From Rhizocola hellebori (GTDB lineage Bacteria; Actinomycetota; Actinomycetes; Mycobacteriales; Micromonosporaceae), in contig NZ_BONY01000005.1 of the NCBI RefSeq assembly GCF_016862955.1, forward strand, positions 124,001 to 188,000: a stretch of 64,000 bases of DNA. The letters are read 5' to 3'. This document shows positions 40,426 to 51,110 of the stretch, one piece after another. Each line of letters begins with the position of its first letter. Within the stretch, counting starts at the first letter, position 1. Made by a program: the position numbers and the translations under genes. The notes beneath the pieces are model-generated. The model ran no database searches and was not told the origin of the DNA. It saw only the letters and a list, made by a program, of their open reading frames with translations.

Positions 40426-41307
40426 TCAGCGAGTCGCGCGACCGGCTCGGGTGCCGTCTTGCCTTGGCGTGGCAGCGCTGCGCGCTGGGGGTGGTGCTCC
40501 GCCTGGTTTCTGGGCCAGCAGAGCCCGGAACTCGGCCTCGGCGTCGGCCGCGACGGCGTCGTGCACGCGGCGGTAGGTTTCATAGCTGCGGCTGGCCGGC
40601 CACTTCGGGTCCATGAACTCGCGCGGCAGCCGGGGATCTACTCGCAGCAGCGCCAGCCAGTCGGCCACCAGCATCGCGCGCAGACTCAACGCGGTGCCCG
40701 CGTTCAGAGAGGGCGAGCGGGTCCAGGTCTTGATGAAGCTGAGATGCTCACCGCGGATCGCCTCGATGTCCCAGGCGGCTTTGACACTCTCCGCGACGGG
40801 GTAGCCGGGAAGCTCCCGAGCGTGGAAGGCGAGGACGGCGTTGGGTGGAAGCTCCTCGCGCAAGGGTTGCAGGGCCGAGGCGAGGTCGACTTCGCCGGGC
40901 GCGAGCCAGAGCCCGTCGCGCAGAGGGGCAAACCCCGCCCAGGTCAGGGTGGATCGAAGATGATGCCGCAGGGTCCGTTGCTCCTCGGGAACCGAAAAGG
41001 TCACCAGCGTCCAGCCGCTGCCCACCGGGTCGAAGGGATGGGAGCTGCGCACGCGTCCGGCGGCTTCTCTGAGCACCGCGGTGCCGTGCTCGGTGAGCGC
41101 GAAAAGGATCTCCCGCCCGCTGCGGCTGCGTTCGAGGAAGCCGGAGGTGACGAGGCGGTCGAGGGTGGCGCGGGTCGCGGGGGCCGCTATGCCGGCCCCT
41201 TCAAGCACGTTGAGCAGGACACTCGCCCGGATCGGGCCGGGGTCGTCGTCGAGGACGTGTTCGCCCAGGAACGCGAAGAGAAGCTGCCTGGGCTGACGAC
41301 TCCGCAC
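40426..41307 (-). CDS. PaaX-family transcriptional regulator
   Basis: A protein of about 293 residues with an N-terminal winged helix (RQLLFAFLGEHVLDD to LDRLVTSGFLERSRSGRE), a middle domain (TLVTFSVPEEQRTLRHHLRSTLTWAGFAPLRDGLWLAP) and a C-terminal domain ending in the family's LLRVDPRLPREFMDPKWP segment. PaaX repressors sense CoA thioesters, such as phenylacetyl-CoA, and control degradation genes. I favour GTG 41307, which has GGGAGG upstream; TTG 41340 would overlap the ATPase stop. It is the last gene of the importer operon and probably controls both arms of the island, which includes a CoA ligase. Confidence 0.87.
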   Translation of the reverse strand: MRSRQPRQLLFAFLGEHVLDDDPGPIRASVLLNVLEGAGIAAPATRATLDRLVTSGFLERSRSGREILFALTEHGTAVLREAAGRVRSSHPFDPVGSGWTLVTFSVPEEQRTLRHHLRSTLTWAGFAPLRDGLWLAPGEVDLASALQPLREELPPNAVLAFHARELPGYPVAESVKAAWDIEAIRGEHLSFIKTWTRSPSLNAGTALSLRAMLVADWLALLRVDPRLPREFMDPKWPASRSYETYRRVHDAVAADAEAEFRALLAQKPGGAPPPARSAATPRQDGTRAGRATR

Positions 41308-41336
41308 TGTCCTGTCCCTCCCTGCCGACTGCGTGA

Positions 41337-42122
41337 TCAACGTGCTTTGGCCCGCTGGATGTGACCGTACACATGGGTGCGCAGCTCGGTGAAGCGTGGC
41401 AGGGCCCGCGTCGTGATCTGATCACGGTCATCCGGGAGATCGATCTTCAGGCTCTCCTCCACGCGCGTCGGGGACTTGGACAGGACCAGGACGCGTTCGC
41501 CCAGGTACACCGATTCATCGATGTCGTGGGTGACGAACAGAATCGACACACCTCGGCTGCGGTGTAGGTCGCGAACCAGATCTTCCAGATCGGCACGGGT
41601 TTGAGCATCGACGGCGGCGAACGGTTCATCCATGATCAGTATCTCGGGCTCGTAGGCGATGGCGCGAGCGATCGCCACCCGCTGCTGCATCCCCCCGGAA
41701 AGCTGCCAGGGGTGGCTCTTTGCGGCGTGGGCCAGGCCGACCGCCTCCAGCGACTCATCGATGAGCCGATCGCGCCGCGCGCGGGGGAGCTTCTTGTGCC
41801 GCAGCGGAAGCTCCACATTGGATCGAACGGTCAGCCACGGGTAGAGGCTGCGGCCGTACTCCTGGAATACCAATGCCATCGAGGGGGTCGGTCCGGTCAC
41901 CCGCACGCCGTCCATCTCGACCACGCCATCGCTGGGACGTAGCAGACCCGCGATGCACTTGAGCAGTGTGGTCTTGCCGCAGCCGGAGGGTCCCACGATG
42001 CAGACCAGCTCGCCTGCGCCCATGGTGAAGCTGAGGTCCCCGATGGCTTCGACGTCGCCCCTGGGCGATTCATAGACCTTGCGCAGGTGGTCCACCCGCA
42101 ACATGGTGGTCCGCTCAGCCAC
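41337..42122 (-). CDS. ABC transporter ATPase (SsuB/TauB/NrtD-like)
   Basis: A 261-residue ATPase with Walker A GPSGCGKTT (44-52), Q-loop in VFQEYGRSLYPW, signature LSGGMQQR (about 143-150), Walker B ILIMDEP and the H-loop FVTHDIDES. Its wording fits the nitrate/sulfonate/taurine importer group. It powers uptake through the two permeases encoded upstream. GTG 42122 overlaps the permease stop by eight bases. Unlike the three sugar importers in the window, this system carries its own ATPase. Confidence 0.92.
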   Translation of the reverse strand: MAERTTMLRVDHLRKVYESPRGDVEAIGDLSFTMGAGELVCIVGPSGCGKTTLLKCIAGLLRPSDGVVEMDGVRVTGPTPSMALVFQEYGRSLYPWLTVRSNVELPLRHKKLPRARRDRLIDESLEAVGLAHAAKSHPWQLSGGMQQRVAIARAIAYEPEILIMDEPFAAVDAQTRADLEDLVRDLHRSRGVSILFVTHDIDESVYLGERVLVLSKSPTRVEESLKIDLPDDRDQITTRALPRFTELRTHVYGHIQRAKAR

Positions 42123-42921
42123 GCTCGACCTCCAGCATTCCGTGGTACCAACGAAGGATGCGACGTTCGGCGAAACCGAAGATCGCCGCGAGGAGGACGC
42201 CGGTGAGGCCCAGCAACACGATGCCGCTCCAGCTTTCGGCGATGAGGAAGTTGCGCTGGAAGTAGACGATCCGGTAGCCCAGACCCGACGACGAGGCGAA
42301 CATCTCCGAGATCACCATCAGGATCAGCGCTACCGACAGGCCCGTTCGCACGCCGGTCATGATGCGCGGGCTGGCGGCCGGCAAAACGAGGTACCACAGG
42401 CGTTGCCACCGGGTGATCCGGAACGCGTCGGCGGTTTCGGTCATGATGCTGTCGGTGGCCCGTACCCCATCAATGGTGTTCAAAAGGATCGGCCACACCG
42501 CCCCGGAGACGATGACCGCAATCTTCATGGTGTCGGTGATGCCTAACAGCAACATGACGATGGGGATCAGGGCGGGAGGTGGGATGGCGCGGAAGAACTC
42601 CAGCACCGGCTCGGTGAGCTCGCGCAGCCACGGCAACAGACCGATCACCGTGCCAGCGGCGACGCCGGCGACAATGGACACGACGATTCCGATGCCGAGC
42701 CGGTAGAGACTTGGCAATACCTCGTGGGCGAAGGCGGGGCCGATCCAGTTGTCGGCGAACGCGCGGCCGACGGTCACCGGGTCTGGGTAGAACTTCTCGG
42801 CGCCGACCGCCTCGTCGGGCTTCTTGGCCAGCGCGTTCCAGGCGACCAGGATCAGCACCGGCAGTCCGGCCGCGAAAAGCAGGTTGGCAACGATGGTCTT
42901 GATCCGGGCGGCGGCGCTCAC
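42115..42921 (-). CDS. ABC transporter permease (SsuC-like), second copy
   Basis: A 268-residue permease with six predicted helices and a cytoplasmic loop ETADAFRITRWQRLWYLVLPAASPRI of the binding-protein-dependent family. GTG 42921 overlaps the stop of the first permease gene by four bases (GTGA) and follows GGAGGAG. Having two related permease genes in one operon suggests a heterodimeric channel. Confidence 0.9.
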   Translation of the reverse strand: MSAAARIKTIVANLLFAAGLPVLILVAWNALAKKPDEAVGAEKFYPDPVTVGRAFADNWIGPAFAHEVLPSLYRLGIGIVVSIVAGVAAGTVIGLLPWLRELTEPVLEFFRAIPPPALIPIVMLLLGITDTMKIAVIVSGAVWPILLNTIDGVRATDSIMTETADAFRITRWQRLWYLVLPAASPRIMTGVRTGLSVALILMVISEMFASSSGLGYRIVYFQRNFLIAESWSGIVLLGLTGVLLAAIFGFAERRILRWYHGMLEVERG

Positions 42922-43721
42922 AGGATCTCCTCCCCGCGGATGGACTGGTGCCAGTGCAACACTCGGCGTTCGATGCGACGGAAGACGGCGTTGATGGTGA
43001 CGCCGAGCAGGCCCGCGACGACGACGAAGGCGTAGAGACCGGCTGCGTCTCCAGGTGTTGAGCGAGACAGCATGATCAGTGTTCCCAGCCCGGGGTTGCC
43101 GATCACCATTTCGGCGGTGATGGCGAGGATGAGCGCGACAGATGCGGCCAGGCGCAGACCCGTCATCACGTAGGGCAGGGCGGTGGGCAGGACCAGTTTC
43201 GTCAGCCGTTCGGTCATCGTGAGGCCGAAACTGCGGGCGGTGTCACGGGCGACGGCATCGACATCGGCGACGCCGTAGAGAACCTGGACGAACATCTGCC
43301 AGAACGACGCATAGACAGTAATGATCAGTGCTGCCTCGATGCTGATGCCTTGGATGATGACGGCGACAGGCACGATGGCCACCGACGGGATGGGCCGCAG
43401 GAACTCGACCGTGGTGTGGGTGGCGCGCCGCAGGAAGGGGACCAGGCCGATGACCGCGCCCAGGGCAAGCGCCGCCAGCGAAGCGATGGTCAGGCCGATC
43501 GCCCATGCCTGCATCGTGAGGCCCAGCCGACGCCAGAACGCCAGGTCCACCAGCTCTTGCGTGAGCCGTGCCGCGACATCGGTGGGGTAGGGCAGGTACT
43601 CCCGGTCGATCAGACCCAGCATCGGGATCAGTTGCCAGACGGCCAGGAAACCGAGCAGTCCGGCGGCGCCCAGCAACGGCTTGCGGGCGCGGCGCAACAA
43701 GGGGACGGACCGTAAGGACAT
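42918..43721 (-). CDS. ABC transporter permease (SsuC-like), first copy
   Basis: A 267-residue permease beginning MSLRSVPLLRRARKPLL, with six helices and the loop DTARSFGLTMTERLTKLVLPTALPYVMTG. ATG 43721 is chosen because residues upstream in the open frame (to 43910) are a Ser/Arg-rich shadow of the binding-protein gene. It is about 52 bp downstream of that gene. It pairs with the product of 42115-42921. Confidence 0.88.
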   Translation of the reverse strand: MSLRSVPLLRRARKPLLGAAGLLGFLAVWQLIPMLGLIDREYLPYPTDVAARLTQELVDLAFWRRLGLTMQAWAIGLTIASLAALALGAVIGLVPFLRRATHTTVEFLRPIPSVAIVPVAVIIQGISIEAALIITVYASFWQMFVQVLYGVADVDAVARDTARSFGLTMTERLTKLVLPTALPYVMTGLRLAASVALILAITAEMVIGNPGLGTLIMLSRSTPGDAAGLYAFVVVAGLLGVTINAVFRRIERRVLHWHQSIRGEEIL

Positions 43722-43773
43722 GCCGGGTGTGCCCTCACCCAAACCGTGGAAGGAGGGCACACCCGATGACTGG

Positions 43774-44751
43774 TTACTTCTGCTGGACAAGACGGTCGAG
43801 GTTCGGCGACTTGGGGAGCACCTTGTACTTGACGGCGAGGTCGACCAGTTTCTGCAGGCTCGCCTTGTCGACCTGCCAGCCGTAGTTCGGCAGGCGCAGG
43901 GAGTCGGCAACCGCCGGCGGGAGTGAGGTCAGGCCGGCCTTGAGCGCCTGGCGCAGCGCCGCATTGTTCGCTGCCTCCTTCGCCCACGCGAGGGTCTCCT
44001 TCATCGCCGCGGCGAAGTCGTTGACCACTGCCGGTTTCTCCGTGAGCAGCTTGGTGGTGGTGAAGGTGGTCAGCGTGGTGAGGCCCGCGATGGTGTTCTG
44101 GTAGGGCGCCACCACGAAGGTGTCTCCACGTCCCTTGAGCTGTGACACGAAGGGCTCGGGAACCCAACCGGCATCGATGTTTCCAGCCTGGAGCTGGGCC
44201 GGCACGTCGGGGAACGCGACCTCGACGAACTTGACGGTGCTGGGGTCGCCGCCGTCCTTGGCCACGGACTCCATGATGGTGACATCCCCTGCTGCCCCAA
44301 GGCTGTTGACGGAAACCTTGCGGCCGGCCAGATCCCGTGGGCGGGTGATGCCTGATGCTTTCGAAGCTACGACCGCGTTGATGTCGTCGCCGGTGGCGTA
44401 AGACGAGGCATAGTTACCGATGATGACCACGCCGAGATCCTGAAGGTCCGCCCGGAACGGGCCGAACGGCTGCCCGATCGCGAAGTCGAGATCACCTTTG
44501 GTGAGGGCGGGAATGGCGAGCGCGCCACCCTGCGCGGGCAGCACCTCCACCTCCAGGCCATGGCGCGTGAAAATGCCCTGCGAGATGCCGGCCCAGAGCG
44601 CGGCCGTCTCGGCGATGGGCAGGGCCGCGACGCGAACGTGGCGCAGGCCCGCGCTGGTCGGGGCGGTGTTCGTCGGCGCATCGGAGTCGGTGCATCCACT
44701 CAGGCTGATCGCCACGGTGGCGATCAGCGATAGAGCAAGAACCTTCTTCAT
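43774..44751 (-). CDS. SsuA/NMT1-type substrate-binding lipoprotein
   Basis: A 325-residue lipoprotein with lipobox SLSGC (Cys about residue 20) and features of the nitrate/sulfonate/thiamine-precursor receptor family: VRVAALPIAETAALWAGISQGIF, GGALAIPALTKGDLDFAIGQP, DLAGRKVSVNSLGA and DAGWVPEPFVSQ. Such receptors bind small organic anions or heterocycles. ATG 44751 is chosen for the signal peptide; the frame is open to 44877. It heads the minus-strand operon (receptor, two permeases, ATPase, PaaX), divergent from the catabolic genes. The ligand is probably the carboxylate degraded by those genes. Confidence 0.9.
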   Translation of the reverse strand: MKKVLALSLIATVAISLSGCTDSDAPTNTAPTSAGLRHVRVAALPIAETAALWAGISQGIFTRHGLEVEVLPAQGGALAIPALTKGDLDFAIGQPFGPFRADLQDLGVVIIGNYASSYATGDDINAVVASKASGITRPRDLAGRKVSVNSLGAAGDVTIMESVAKDGGDPSTVKFVEVAFPDVPAQLQAGNIDAGWVPEPFVSQLKGRGDTFVVAPYQNTIAGLTTLTTFTTTKLLTEKPAVVNDFAAAMKETLAWAKEAANNAALRQALKAGLTSLPPAVADSLRLPNYGWQVDKASLQKLVDLAVKYKVLPKSPNLDRLVQQK

Positions 44752-44947
44752 AGGAGGCCCTTCCAAGGGACGGGGTGCGGGACGGGCAGTGGGCGCCCGG
44801 GCCGCGGAATCGCTGGTCCACTGCGCGGGGACGCCCGTATGTTCGCTCATCGTGGGCCAGGGCACACTCAAAGTCAATATTTCTATAACGCTCGTCTTGG
44901 TTCAGTTGAAAGATGACGGTCGACTGGATGCCATGTAACATCCGTCC

Positions 44948-45736
44948 ATGTTGGATGAGGTGGTTGCCCTTCCCGCTTCGCTGATCCTGGAACGCAGCGG
45001 CGAGGCGGCCGTCCTGATGCTCAACCGCCCCGAGAAACGCAACGCCCTGGACGATGCCACGATCGTCGCCATTGGCGAGTTCTTCGCCCGGCCGCCGTCG
45101 TGGGCCAGAGCCGTCGTGCTTGCCGCCGTGGGGCCACACTTCTCGGCCGGACTGGACCTCGGCGAGCTGACCGAACGCGACGCGGTCGACGGGTTCTTTC
45201 ACTCGCGGATGTGGCACGAGGCCTTCGCGCGCATCGAGTCGGGAACGCTGCCGGTCATTGCCGTGCTTACGGGCGCGGTCGTCGGTGGGGGCCTCGAGCT
45301 CGCCGCCGCGGCGCACCTGCGCGTTGCCGAGGAATCGGCGTTCTTCGCCCTGCCCGAGGGGCAGCGGGGGCTTTTCGTCGGCGGCGGCGCTTCGGTGCGG
45401 GTACCCCGGCTGGTCGGGGCGCACCGGATGACCGACATGATGCTGACCGGCCGGGTGCTGACCGCGGACGAAGGCGCGGTGGCCGGGCTGGTCAACTATC
45501 GGGTGGCCAATGGCGAAGGGCTGGCGAAGGCGCTCGAGCTGGCCACCTCCATCGCCGGCAACTCCGCGATCACCAACTACGCGGTAATCCATGCCCTGCC
45601 CCGGATCGTGCAGGCCGCTCCGGAGACCGGGCTGCTGCTGGAATCATTGATGGCCGCGGTCGCGCAGAGCAGTCAGGAAGCCAAGGAACGGATGAACGCG
45701 TTCCTCAACGGCCACGGGCGCAAGGTCGGTGAATGA
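44948..45736 (+). CDS. Crotonase-family enzyme (enoyl-CoA hydratase/isomerase or C-C hydrolase)
   Basis: A 262-residue crotonase with NRPEKRNALD, the first oxyanion-hole segment HFSAGLDLGEL, the second at VVGGGLELAAAAHLRVAEES, and a catalytic-region Glu in ALPEGQRGLFVGGG. Members hydrate or isomerise enoyl-CoAs or cleave beta-diketone-type CoA esters. It is the first gene of a tight plus-strand operon; its stop overlaps the next start (ATGA). An AACAT-N6-ATGTT inverted repeat (44937-44952) overlaps its start codon and may be a regulatory site. Which reaction it performs cannot be read from sequence. Confidence 0.88.
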   Translation: MLDEVVALPASLILERSGEAAVLMLNRPEKRNALDDATIVAIGEFFARPPSWARAVVLAAVGPHFSAGLDLGELTERDAVDGFFHSRMWHEAFARIESGTLPVIAVLTGAVVGGGLELAAAAHLRVAEESAFFALPEGQRGLFVGGGASVRVPRLVGAHRMTDMMLTGRVLTADEGAVAGLVNYRVANGEGLAKALELATSIAGNSAITNYAVIHALPRIVQAAPETGLLLESLMAAVAQSSQEAKERMNAFLNGHGRKVGE

Positions 45737-47712
45737 GCGTGAACGATCAATTGCGGCCCGAGCTTCTCTACCAGCTGGCCCCCGAGCGGGTCGCGCGCAC
45801 CCGCGTCAGAGACTTCCAGCGTTGGCTCGCGACGGAACGAAGGCTGGACCTGCCCTCCTATGCCGACCTGCACGCGTGGTCAGTGTCGCATTTGGACATT
45901 TTCTAGGAGGCGGTCTGGCAATATTTCGCGATCCAGGCCCCCACACCGTACGAGAAGGTGCTGGGGGAGCGGACGATGCCGGGCACCCGCTGGTTCCCCG
46001 GCGCCACCCTCAACTACGCCCAGCACTGCTTCGGCACGTCCGAAGACGCGGACACCGTCGCCGTCGTCGCCTACTCGCAGACCCGCTCTCCCGTGCAGCT
46101 GACCTTCGCCGAACTCGCCGAGCAGGTGCGCCGCGTCCGTGAAGGGCTGCGCGGGCTGGGCGTGAAAAGCGGCGATCGGGTGGTCGGTTACCTGCCCAAC
46201 TGTCCCGAGGCGCTGATAGCTTTCCTTGCCACGGCCAGCCTGGGCGCCATCTGGGCCAGCTGCGCGCCCGAGTTCGGCCCGCACAGCGTCGTGGACAGGT
46301 TCGCCCAGATCGAACCGAGCGTGATGTTCGCTGTGGCGGGATACACCTACGGCGACAAGCAAATCGACCGGCGCGGCGAGGTCGCCGAGATCGGCGCCCA
46401 AATCCCCTCCCTTCGGCACATCGTGCATGTGCCCTACGGTCCGCACAACCTGCCCGCAGCCGTCGCCTGGGACGACCTGACAGCCCCGACACCTGAGCCG
46501 CTGGAGTTCGTGCCGGTGCCGTTCGACCACCCGCTCTACGTCCTGTTCTCGTCCGGGACCACCGGCCGGGCCAAGGCGATCGTGCACGGGCACGGCGGCA
46601 TTCTGCTGGAGCACCTGAAGAATCTGGCCCTGCATTGGGATCTCGGGCCGGGCGACCGGTTGCTCTGGTTCACCACGACCGCCTGGATGATGTGGAACTC
46701 TCTGGTCTCGGCGCTGCTGGTGCGGGCCTCACTCGTGATGATCGACGGAAACCCGCTCTACCCCGATCTATTGCAGCAGTGGCGTTTGGCGGAGCAGACC
46801 GGGGCCACGCTCATGGGTGCCAGCCCGAGTTTCCTGATGGCGTGCCGCAAGGCCGAGCTGCGCCCGGCGCAACAATTCGATCTTTCCCGGCTCCGGCAGA
46901 TCGGCGTAGCGGGAAGCCCGTTCCCGGCAGAGGGCTACCGCTGGGTGGCCGAACAATTCGGGGAAGCGGTGCTGTTGAACGTGGGCAGCGGCGGCACGGA
47001 CGTCTGCACCGGCCTGGTTCAGGCCTCACCGCTGCTGCCCGTCTGGGTGGGGGAGATGTCAGGACCGAGCCTCGGGGTGGACATCAAAGCGTTCGACGAG
47101 CACGGCCGCGTTGTGGTGGGCGAGCTGGGTGAGCTGGTCATCACCTCGCCGATGCCGTCCATGCCGGTCGGCCTCTGGGGCGACGCCGACGGTAGCCGGC
47201 TGCGGGAGTCCTACTTCTCCCAATATCCGGGTGCCTTCCGGTTCGGGGACTGGTGCCGCTTCTCGGCCGCCGGGACGTGTGTCATCACGGGCCGTTCTGA
47301 TGCCACCCTCAACCGGGGCGGGGTGCGCTTGGGCACCGCGGAGTTCTACCGTGTGCTGCAAGACGTTGCCGAGGTGGCGGACAGCGTCGTGGTACACCTT
47401 GAAGACCCTTCTGGTGGACCCGGCGAACTTCTCCTCTTCGTGGTGCCTCAGCCGGGCGTCACCGTCGATGACGCGCTGCGCCATAAGCTTTCCACCCAGA
47501 TTCGCACCGCGTTGTCGCCGCGCCACGTGCCCGACCGCATTGTCGGGGTGCAGGCGATCCCCTACTCGCGCACCGGTAAGAAGCTGGAGGTGCCCGTGAA
47601 GAGGATTCTGAGTGGCGCCGATCCTGACGCGGTGGCCTCCCCGGGCGCTCTGGTAGATCCCGGTGCGCTCGACGCGTTTGTCGACTACTACCGGCTGCAG
47701 GCCAAGGCATGA
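45733..47712 (+). pseudogene. Acetoacetyl-CoA-synthetase-like acyl-CoA ligase with an in-frame TAG at codon 58
   Basis: The frame from ATG 45733 (overlapping the crotonase stop) through 47712 would give 659 residues, the normal length for acetoacetyl-CoA synthetases, but codon 58 (45904-45906) is TAG. Homologous wording continues without shift on both sides: VSHLDIF, stop, EAVWQYFAIQAPTPYEK. Family proteins usually have FW at this spot, so TAG looks like a one-base change of TGG. Further on are WFPGATLNYA, the nucleotide loop YVLFSSGTTGRAKAI, GSGGTDVCTG, TGRSDATLNRGGVRLGTAEFYR and the SRTGKK lysine. It should activate a beta-keto acid to its CoA ester. Options: true nonsense mutation, reinitiation at GTG 45958 or ATG 45976 (losing about 75-81 residues), amber readthrough, or a sequencing error. 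Confidence 0.85.
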
Positions 47713-48677
47713 GCGCCAACTCCAACGTCGATGCGTTGCCGACACCGCGTCGCGTCACCGTCATCGGCACCGGCGTCATAGGCTCCGGCTGGGCCGCGTT
47801 GTTCCTGGCCCGCGGGCTGGATGTGGTGGCCTTCGACCCGGCCCCTGACGCGCCGGCGCGGCTTCGCCAAGCCGTCGATGACGCTTGGCCGTCGCTGACC
47901 AGGCTCGGGCTGGCCGATACCGCCGACCGCTCCCGCCTTCGTTTCGCGACCGGCATCGCCGACGCCGTGCGTACGGCGCATTTCGTGCAGGAGAGCGGTC
48001 CGGAGGATGCGGCGCTCAAACAGGAGCTCGTCGCGCAACTCGACGCGGCAACGCCGGCATACGTGCCGATTGTGAGCAGTTCCTCGGGGTTGACGCCGTC
48101 GCAGATCCAGCAGGGGTGCACCGTGGCACCGCAGCGGGTGCTCGTGGGACACCCCTTCCATCCGGCCTATCTGGTGCCGCTGGTCGAAGTGGTGCCAAGT
48201 CCCCGTACCGATCCGGCGGTGACCGAAAGGTGCATGGAGTTCTATTCATGGCTCGGCAAGCGTCCCGTTCACGTTCGCCAAGAAGTCCCAGGGCATTTGG
48301 CCAACCGCCTCCAGGCCGCACTCTGGCGCGAGGCCTACTCTCTGGTGGAGCGAGGCGTAGCCTCGGTGGCCGACATCGACACGGCGATCGCGCATGGCCC
48401 GGGTCTGCGCTGGGCGCTGCTGGGTCCGCTTGTCAGCCAACACCTCGCCGGCGGCGCCGGCGGAATGGCGCACACGTTGGCGCATCTCGGCCCACCGGCG
48501 CAAGCGTGGATGGACGACCTCGGCCAGCCGCGCCTGACGCCGCAACTGACCCGGCTGCTCATCGGCGGGGTGGATGACGAGCTGCACGGAGTCGACCAGT
48601 CGCGCATGGTCGCCGAGCGCGACGAAATGCTCGTTCTGCTGCTGCAGCACAAGGCGCGCCACACCGCCCTGCCCTGA
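47709..48677 (+). CDS. 3-hydroxyacyl-CoA dehydrogenase family, L-carnitine-dehydrogenase-like
   Basis: A 322-residue NAD-dependent dehydrogenase. The Rossmann motif GTGVIGSGWAALFLARGLDV lies at 20-39; the catalytic region VGHPFHPAYLVPLVEVVPS and the helical C-terminal domain with NRLQAALWREAYSLVERGVAS follow. Length and wording match L-carnitine dehydrogenase and related enzymes that oxidise free 3-hydroxy acids rather than fatty acyl-CoA. The start overlaps the ligase stop as ATGA. A plausible order is hydroxy acid to keto acid here, then CoA activation by the neighbour ligase. Confidence 0.88.
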   Translation: MSANSNVDALPTPRRVTVIGTGVIGSGWAALFLARGLDVVAFDPAPDAPARLRQAVDDAWPSLTRLGLADTADRSRLRFATGIADAVRTAHFVQESGPEDAALKQELVAQLDAATPAYVPIVSSSSGLTPSQIQQGCTVAPQRVLVGHPFHPAYLVPLVEVVPSPRTDPAVTERCMEFYSWLGKRPVHVRQEVPGHLANRLQAALWREAYSLVERGVASVADIDTAIAHGPGLRWALLGPLVSQHLAGGAGGMAHTLAHLGPPAQAWMDDLGQPRLTPQLTRLLIGGVDDELHGVDQSRMVAERDEMLVLLLQHKARHTALP

Positions 48678-48703: not shown

Positions 48704-49594
48704 ATGACCGCTTCCTATGTCTGCCGCATCGACCCGAACGCCATCGTGGCGCTGGACATGCACGTGCACATCGAAGCCGACAGCCATGGCCACTTCTCTC
48801 TGGACCAGCCGCTGATGGAGGCGTCGGCCGCCTATTTCAAGGCGGGCAGCGACCGCGCCCCAACGTTGGACCGGGTCGCCGCCTACTACCGTGAGCGCGA
48901 AATGGCCGCGGTGGTCTTTACCGTGGACGCCGGGACCGCACGGGGCCACCCGCCCCTGTCAAGCGCCGAGATCGCGCAGGGCGCGGCCGCCCACGCCGAT
49001 GTGCTGATCCCGTTCGGCTCTGTGGATCCGCTTCGTGGGGCCGACGCCGTCGATCAGGCTCGGCGGCTCGTCGAAGATTTCGGTGTACGCGGCTTCAAGT
49101 TCCATCCGAGCCTGCAGGCGTTCTCGCCCAACGACCGCGAGCACTACCCGCTCTGGCAGACACTCTCTGAGTTGGGCGTGGTGGCGCTGTTCCACACCGG
49201 ACAGACGGGTATAGGCGCCGGAATGCCAGGCGGCTACGGCATCAAGCTGCGCTACTCCGACCCGATGCTGCTCGACGATGTCGCCGCCGATTTCCCCGAC
49301 CTCACCATGATCCTTGCTCATCCCTCAGTGCCGTGGGTCGACAGCTCGCTTTCGATCGCCACTCACAAGGCGAACGTCTACCTGGACCTGTCGGGCTGGT
49401 CGCCGAAATACTTCCCGCCACAGCTGGTAAGGCAGGCCGGTACTCTGCTGCGGCACAAGGTTCTCTTCGGATCGGACTTTCCCCTTCTCACACCAGACCG
49501 ATGGCTGGCCGACTTCGCCGATCTCGACGTCAAAGACGAGGCGCGTCCCCTCATCCTCAAAGAGAACGCGCTGCGCCTGCTCGGCCTCAGGTGA
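48704..49594 (+). CDS. Amidohydrolase-family metal enzyme (ACMSD/resorcylate-decarboxylase type)
   Basis: A 296-residue TIM-barrel protein of the amidohydrolase-2 group. Metal ligands visible: the HxH pair His20/His22 (MHVH), His in LFHTGQTG, His in LAHPS and Asp in LFGSDFPLL, with a FKFHP segment after the third strand. This group includes non-oxidative decarboxylases (2-amino-3-carboxymuconate-semialdehyde, gamma-resorcylate) and lactone hydrolases. RBS GAGAGGGGC precedes ATG 48704. It is the last gene of the operon before a strong terminator. Its role may be a hydrolysis or decarboxylation in the same pathway. Confidence 0.88.
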   Translation: MTASYVCRIDPNAIVALDMHVHIEADSHGHFSLDQPLMEASAAYFKAGSDRAPTLDRVAAYYREREMAAVVFTVDAGTARGHPPLSSAEIAQGAAAHADVLIPFGSVDPLRGADAVDQARRLVEDFGVRGFKFHPSLQAFSPNDREHYPLWQTLSELGVVALFHTGQTGIGAGMPGGYGIKLRYSDPMLLDDVAADFPDLTMILAHPSVPWVDSSLSIATHKANVYLDLSGWSPKYFPPQLVRQAGTLLRHKVLFGSDFPLLTPDRWLADFADLDVKDEARPLILKENALRLLGLR

Positions 49595-49648: not shown

Positions 49649-50980
49649 TCAGGCGATGCTGCACGCCGTCCCGTTGAGGGTGAATGCGTTGGGCCTGCCG
49701 GTGTTGCCGGTGTGATTGGCCTGGAAGCCGAAGCTCACCGAGGCGTTGCGGGCGATCGTGGCGTTGAAGGACACGTTGCGTGCGGTTACCGCACCACTAT
49801 TGGGCGAGATAGTCGCGTTCCATGCGCCGGTGATGGTCTGTCCACTGGGGAGAGTGAAGGCCAGCGCCCAGCCGTTGATGGCGGCCGTGCCGGTGTTGGT
49901 GATGGTGACCTGTGCGGTGAGCCCGGTGTTCCACGGGTTCACGGTGTAGCCGATGCGGCATCCAGGCGGGACCGGCGTCGACGGTGACGGGCTCGGGCTC
50001 GGGCTGGGGGAGGGCGACGGGCTCGCGCTGGGCGAAGGCGACGGGCCGGCGCGGTCGAGGCCGAAGAACTGGATCGCGGCAAGGGCCATGCCGCTCATGG
50101 GCAGGCTGTGTCCTGCGCCTTGGATGCTGTAGGCCTCGACCTGAACGGTGCCCCCGCTGGCGTAGCGCCGGCGGTTCCAGCTGGGCTGTGGCGTGTCGGT
50201 CGACGTCGGTGTCTGGCTGAGCCCGAACACGTTGGTCCACTGTTCGATGGTCTCTTGCAACAGCTGGAAGGGTACGAGGGTGTCGTTGGTGCCGTGCCAC
50301 AGCTGCACCCGCGGGCGGGCGCCGGTGTAGCCGGGGAACGCCTGGCGCACGGCGTCACCCCACTGCTGCGGCGTGCGGTCCATCTGCCCGTTGACGCACC
50401 GGCTGTTGGTGGGCGGGAAGTCGGCCGCGTTGGCGAAGCAGGTGAACGGCACCCCCATGAAGGCCGCCCCGGCCTTGTACAGGTCGGGGTAGAGGGCGAG
50501 CAGCGCGTTGGTCTCCATGCCACCTGACGAGCTGCCGGTGGCGAAGATGCGCTGCCGGTCGCCGTTGTAGCGCTGCAGCGCGTAGTTGACCATCGAGGCG
50601 ATGGACACGGGATCGCTGCCGCCGCCGCGGCGTTTGGACGCGTCGGACCACACGTCGAAGCAGTTGCCGAAACCTGCCTGCTGGGTGGCGGTCGGGTAGA
50701 TGACGATGAAGCCGTACTGATCGGCCAGCGAAGCGAACTGGCTGCCGGAGAAGAAACCGGGGCCAGATCCGCCGCAGCCGTGCATGGCTACGAGGATCGC
50801 TGGGTTGGCCGGATGCACATCCGGGACATAAATGTGCATCCGGGCACCGCCGGGGTTGTCCCCGAAGTTGGTCACCTCGACCAAGGTGGCGGCGGAAGCG
50901 GGTGACGGCAGGACGATGCCGCCGAGGGCGAGGAGCATGGCGCCGGCTAACGCTGCCGACGCGGTCCTGATTCTGTTCAT
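49649..50980 (-). CDS. Secreted CE1-type esterase (PHB-depolymerase-like) with CBM2
   Basis: A 443-residue secreted enzyme. Signal peptide to about Ala30; catalytic domain (about 31-310) with MHGCGGS, nucleophile Ser151 in GSSSGG, and a late His in GAGHSLPM; a Ser/Pro linker (SPSPSPSPSP); and a C-terminal CBM2 (about 345-443) with PWNTGLTAQVTITN, NGWALAFTLPSGQTITGAWN and a disulfide Cys pair. It should deacetylate or deferuloylate hemicellulose while bound to cellulose. ATG 50980 follows GGAGGAA; the GTG at 50995 is less likely. It differs from the CBM13 esterases in the catalytic domain as well as the binding module. Confidence 0.88.
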   Translation of the reverse strand: MNRIRTASAALAGAMLLALGGIVLPSPASAATLVEVTNFGDNPGGARMHIYVPDVHPANPAILVAMHGCGGSGPGFFSGSQFASLADQYGFIVIYPTATQQAGFGNCFDVWSDASKRRGGGSDPVSIASMVNYALQRYNGDRQRIFATGSSSGGMETNALLALYPDLYKAGAAFMGVPFTCFANAADFPPTNSRCVNGQMDRTPQQWGDAVRQAFPGYTGARPRVQLWHGTNDTLVPFQLLQETIEQWTNVFGLSQTPTSTDTPQPSWNRRRYASGGTVQVEAYSIQGAGHSLPMSGMALAAIQFFGLDRAGPSPSPSASPSPSPSPSPSPSPSTPVPPGCRIGYTVNPWNTGLTAQVTITNTGTAAINGWALAFTLPSGQTITGAWNATISPNSGAVTARNVSFNATIARNASVSFGFQANHTGNTGRPNAFTLNGTACSIA

Positions 50981-51110
50981 CGCACGTTCCTCCATCGATG
51001 AATGTCAGTCAGTCGCTAGCCGCACACATTAGACGTATAGATGACGATCGTCAACACAACGCAGAACGTCGATGCGGCTATCGCGGAGGACGCGCAGAAG
51101 CTTCTCAGGG

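Follow-up and report, generated by a model that had tools for sequence, protein, structure and literature searches.

The stretch of DNA analysed here (the window) comprises 64,000 nucleotides of the Rhizocola hellebori genome and contains a gene for a predicted acetoacetate–CoA ligase (acetoacetyl-CoA synthetase, AACS), the frame of which is broken by an amber codon (Table 1). This frame counts 660 codons with its final stop, corresponding to 659 residues, and the TAG at codon 58 is its sole internal stop, embedded in the context F-stop-EAVWQYF. It starts at ATG 45733, inside the stop codon of the upstream enoyl-CoA hydratase (ECH) gene, while its own stop overlaps the start of the next gene at ATG 47709, with an ATGA overlap in both cases. 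When the TAG is read as Trp, the product scores well above the cut-offs of the two acetoacetate–CoA ligase profiles, with 862 bits against NF002937 (NCBIfam; cut-off 639) and 744 bits against TIGR01217 (cut-off 521), and shows the Pfam domains ACAS_N (residues 43–99), AMP-binding (106–473) and AMP-binding_C (542–616). Likeness to known acetoacetyl-CoA synthetases extends over the full length, before as well as after the stop, and the acetoacetyl-CoA synthetase structure 4WD1 matches residues 8–643 with an E-value of 1.8e-211. Unlike these enzymes, the window AACS carries a TAG at codon 58, and acetoacetate is here a putative substrate. The initial annotation, made from the letters of the window, had thus described the single amber, its surroundings, the two gene overlaps and the identity of the enzyme correctly.

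Table 1. Features of the interrupted AACS gene and its operon, in window coordinates
Feature	Position	Strand
Crotonase / enoyl-CoA hydratase family gene (NF006013), ATGA overlap with AACS	44948..45736	+
Acetoacetate–CoA ligase (AACS) frame, 660 codons, broken at codon 58	45733..47712	+
In-frame amber codon (TAG) at AACS codon 58, replacing an invariant Trp	45904..45906	+
GGGGGAG, Shine-Dalgarno-like, 6 nt ahead of ATG 45976	45963..45969	+
Possible 578-aa product beginning at Met82, conditional on internal initiation	45976..47712	+
3-hydroxyacyl-CoA dehydrogenase family gene, ATGA overlap with AACS	47709..48677	+
Amidohydro_2 gene, final operon gene	48704..49594	+

The three other operon genes in the window have frames that are open throughout. 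The product of the dehydrogenase gene is nearest to L-carnitine dehydrogenase, but stays under the cut-off of that model. The order enoyl-CoA hydratase, AACS, 3-hydroxyacyl-CoA dehydrogenase and Amidohydro_2 on one strand recurs in 47 of 80 named loci, in 34 of which the Amidohydro_2 gene follows directly. Within the family, matches to the window AACS at 63–65% identity occur in 4 of 355 genomes, the other listed matches reaching at most 60%, and in the tree the window AACS is placed among copies from other actinobacterial families. On these grounds, the operon looks accessory within its family, and its sequence relationships suggest that it may have been acquired horizontally. Literature searches returned nothing specific to this operon or to the stop allele. 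Divergent from the operon, at 40426–44877, lie a regulator gene that looks PaaX-like by its sequence and genes for a sulfonate/taurine-type ABC transporter; related transporter genes (51–67%) are found near the operon in two Blastococcus loci (L167 and L181). Positions 49649–50995 of the minus strand encode an esterase of the short-chain PHA depolymerase type that also carries a Ser-Pro linker and a CBM2 cellulose-binding domain.

The genome possesses a second AACS gene (C53:8859-10607), 59% identical to the window copy and with an open frame of 687 codons. In the tree, this paralog clusters with AACS copies from further members of the family, in a lineage typical of it. Stops were also listed for two ligase matches in the genome: the frame of one (L015) appears to be that of an intact ligase, the stop being its own terminal one, and for the other (L009) the printed strand and frame differ from those of the ligase.

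The codon at which the frame is broken was compared in 110 homologs with an aligned position 58, drawn from the 355 family genomes and from named GTDB genomes, with no second genome of the genus among them; the nearest named relatives, about 71–76% identical to the window AACS, include Frankia nepalensis, Streptomyces fragilis, S. abyssomicinicus and Actinomadura physcomitrii. Position 58 is Trp in every one of the 110 and amber in none, the window genome alone among those compared carrying a stop. The initial annotation had proposed that a conserved Trp was replaced, and this comparison confirms it; as in a nonsense pseudogene, the in-frame stop occupies a residue that relatives keep. Together with the homology on both sides of the stop, the invariance of this Trp demonstrates that we are not dealing with a chance open frame. 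All 110 homologs also continue upstream of position 58, indicating that the native start lies ahead of the stop. The idea that the gene natively starts downstream is thereby refuted, while accidental initiation at ATG 45976 is possible.

Apart from codon 58, the gene shows almost no decay, in line with the first reading of the sequence. It has no other stop, and of the 121 columns at which all other homologs agree it deviates at 2, comparable to several intact relatives, which deviate at 1–3; GC3 is 0.81 before the stop and 0.85 after it. Neutral evolution would be expected to add approximately 58 new stops to this gene per substitution per site. As it contains none besides that at codon 58, the neutral time since the latter arose is limited to d < ~0.05, and the invariant columns limit it to d ~0.025. 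The end branch of the window AACS in the tree measures 0.25 amino-acid changes per column. Given this near-absence of other decay, the stop is either a base-call error or recent, its age being under roughly 0.03–0.05 neutral substitutions per site.

We consider it probable that the gene, as part of an accessory four-gene catabolic operon, has undergone a recent TGG-to-TAG nonsense mutation, an option already named in the initial annotation and supported by the absent decay, the invariant Trp and the second, intact AACS. RF1 would then end translation at codon 58, leaving full-length AACS essentially absent, and the allele would abolish function or, at most, be leaky via an internal start. Its loss would be tolerated owing to the operon not being general in the family and to the intact C53 gene, which could compensate for the window copy; however, a paralog of such limited identity may act on another acid. 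In having a lone stop that other species do not share, a frame and codon composition that are otherwise intact, and another intact gene of the same family in the genome, the window AACS resembles recent single-nonsense bacterial pseudogenes, from which it differs in nothing essential, its one peculiarity being a strong, probably accidental, internal Shine-Dalgarno sequence before Met82. The chief rival, that the TAG stems from a base-call or assembly error, the organism itself carrying TGG and making a normal enzyme, is unlikely, and less likely than a recent nonsense allele. It involves a single base in a draft assembly of 207 contigs, in a gene that is otherwise under normal constraint and at a Trp that is invariant elsewhere, and about 275 kb of the genome contained no further interrupted gene. 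Against it, the sampled sequence holds no similar stops or frameshifts, meaning that errors are not widespread in the assembly, and G-to-A changes are common as natural mutations. We infer that the base is real.

The strong internal Shine-Dalgarno sequence could nevertheless let some activity survive the mutation. Ribosomes might start at ATG 45976, the first well-placed in-frame start past the stop, by way of GGGGGAG, and produce a partly functional enzyme that lacks residues 1–81 and keeps the AMP-binding core. The duplex energy with the anti-Shine-Dalgarno sequence is −9.9 kcal/mol at this ATG, near the −10.5 kcal/mol of the native start, while GTG 45958 is weak (−3.0). Ahead of the same Met in 90 homologs it averages −5.5 kcal/mol (sd 2.0, minimum −9.3), all of them weaker than in the window. 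In addition, relatives of solved structure, benzoate-CoA ligases among them, begin to align only at about residue 87–92. However, every homolog retains the N-terminal extension, to which most of ACAS_N belongs, suggesting that AACS needs it; the ATG sits 69 nt past the stop, and the Shine-Dalgarno strength is one outlier in 91, noticed after the fact. Since prokaryotes are considered to reinitiate frequently (PMC5972666), some shortened protein from Met82 is plausible, yet a partly functional enzyme arising in this way is decidedly unlikely. Still further removed, and very improbable, is that amber and Shine-Dalgarno sequence together switch the gene to an N-terminally shortened, still active enzyme with changed properties; this would constitute a start-site change made by one mutation. 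If initiation at Met82 proved true, it would test the dispensability of an extension found throughout the acetoacetyl-CoA synthetases. The mutation itself creates the sequence TAGGAGG, which we discarded as a Shine-Dalgarno candidate in view of there being no in-frame ATG, GTG or TTG at suitable spacing downstream.

It was also proposed that the amber is read through, which, whether by a suppressor tRNA, by pyrrolysine or by programmed readthrough, would give the pathway a translational control point. Frame and constraint do persist past the stop, but this is equally expected after a recent mutation. To search for a suppressor tRNA, as the initial annotation had advised, tRNAs were collected as Rfam matches and the loci around them analysed with ARAGORN, a census that leaves weaker tRNAs and draft gaps uncovered. 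The 64 RF00005 matches in the genome yielded 44 isotype-anticodon types and 70 distinct sequences (some maybe one gene cut differently), with no CUA, UCA or UUA anticodon among the 44 types. RF1 is intact, scoring 480 bits against a cut-off of 423, and has no internal stop. The best PylS match in the genome reaches 24.8 bits against a cut-off of 178, and similarly weak matches occur in most control genomes. We further scanned about 275 kb, comprising the window and partly overlapping loci from the same genome, for stops with coding-like composition before and after them. The codon-58 stop was recovered twice (in the window and in L004), together with two further stops, of which one, at 49947, is on the strand opposite the esterase-CBM2 gene and the other, in L014, looks, in our reading, like a gene start right after a stop. 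A second convincing stop-interrupted gene was absent from this sequence, which argues against a generally stop-ridden genome. The hallmarks of amber recoding, namely a CUA tRNA, PylS presence or RF1 loss, and conserved or multiple ambers, are therefore all missing from what was searched. As the searches for a CUA tRNA, PylS, RF1 loss and a second case gave nothing, regulated readthrough is unsupported, nothing points to a translational control point, and we regard readthrough by any of the three routes named above as extremely improbable. The case is mainly a caution against taking a lone stop in a frame that is otherwise intact to mean recoding; the parts that recoding requires were looked for in this genome and not found.

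Two tRNA loci stood out in their own right. At C1:125017-125102 (minus strand), a low-scoring class-II-like tRNA (34.8 bits), reported by ARAGORN as 'tRNA-???', has UCG in its anticodon loop as judged by eye and is followed by a hairpin and a T run resembling an intrinsic terminator. At C8:69517-70426, some eleven tRNA genes representing many isotypes, several of them low-scoring, form a dense array on one strand; they resemble a second set of tRNAs, which a mobile element may carry.
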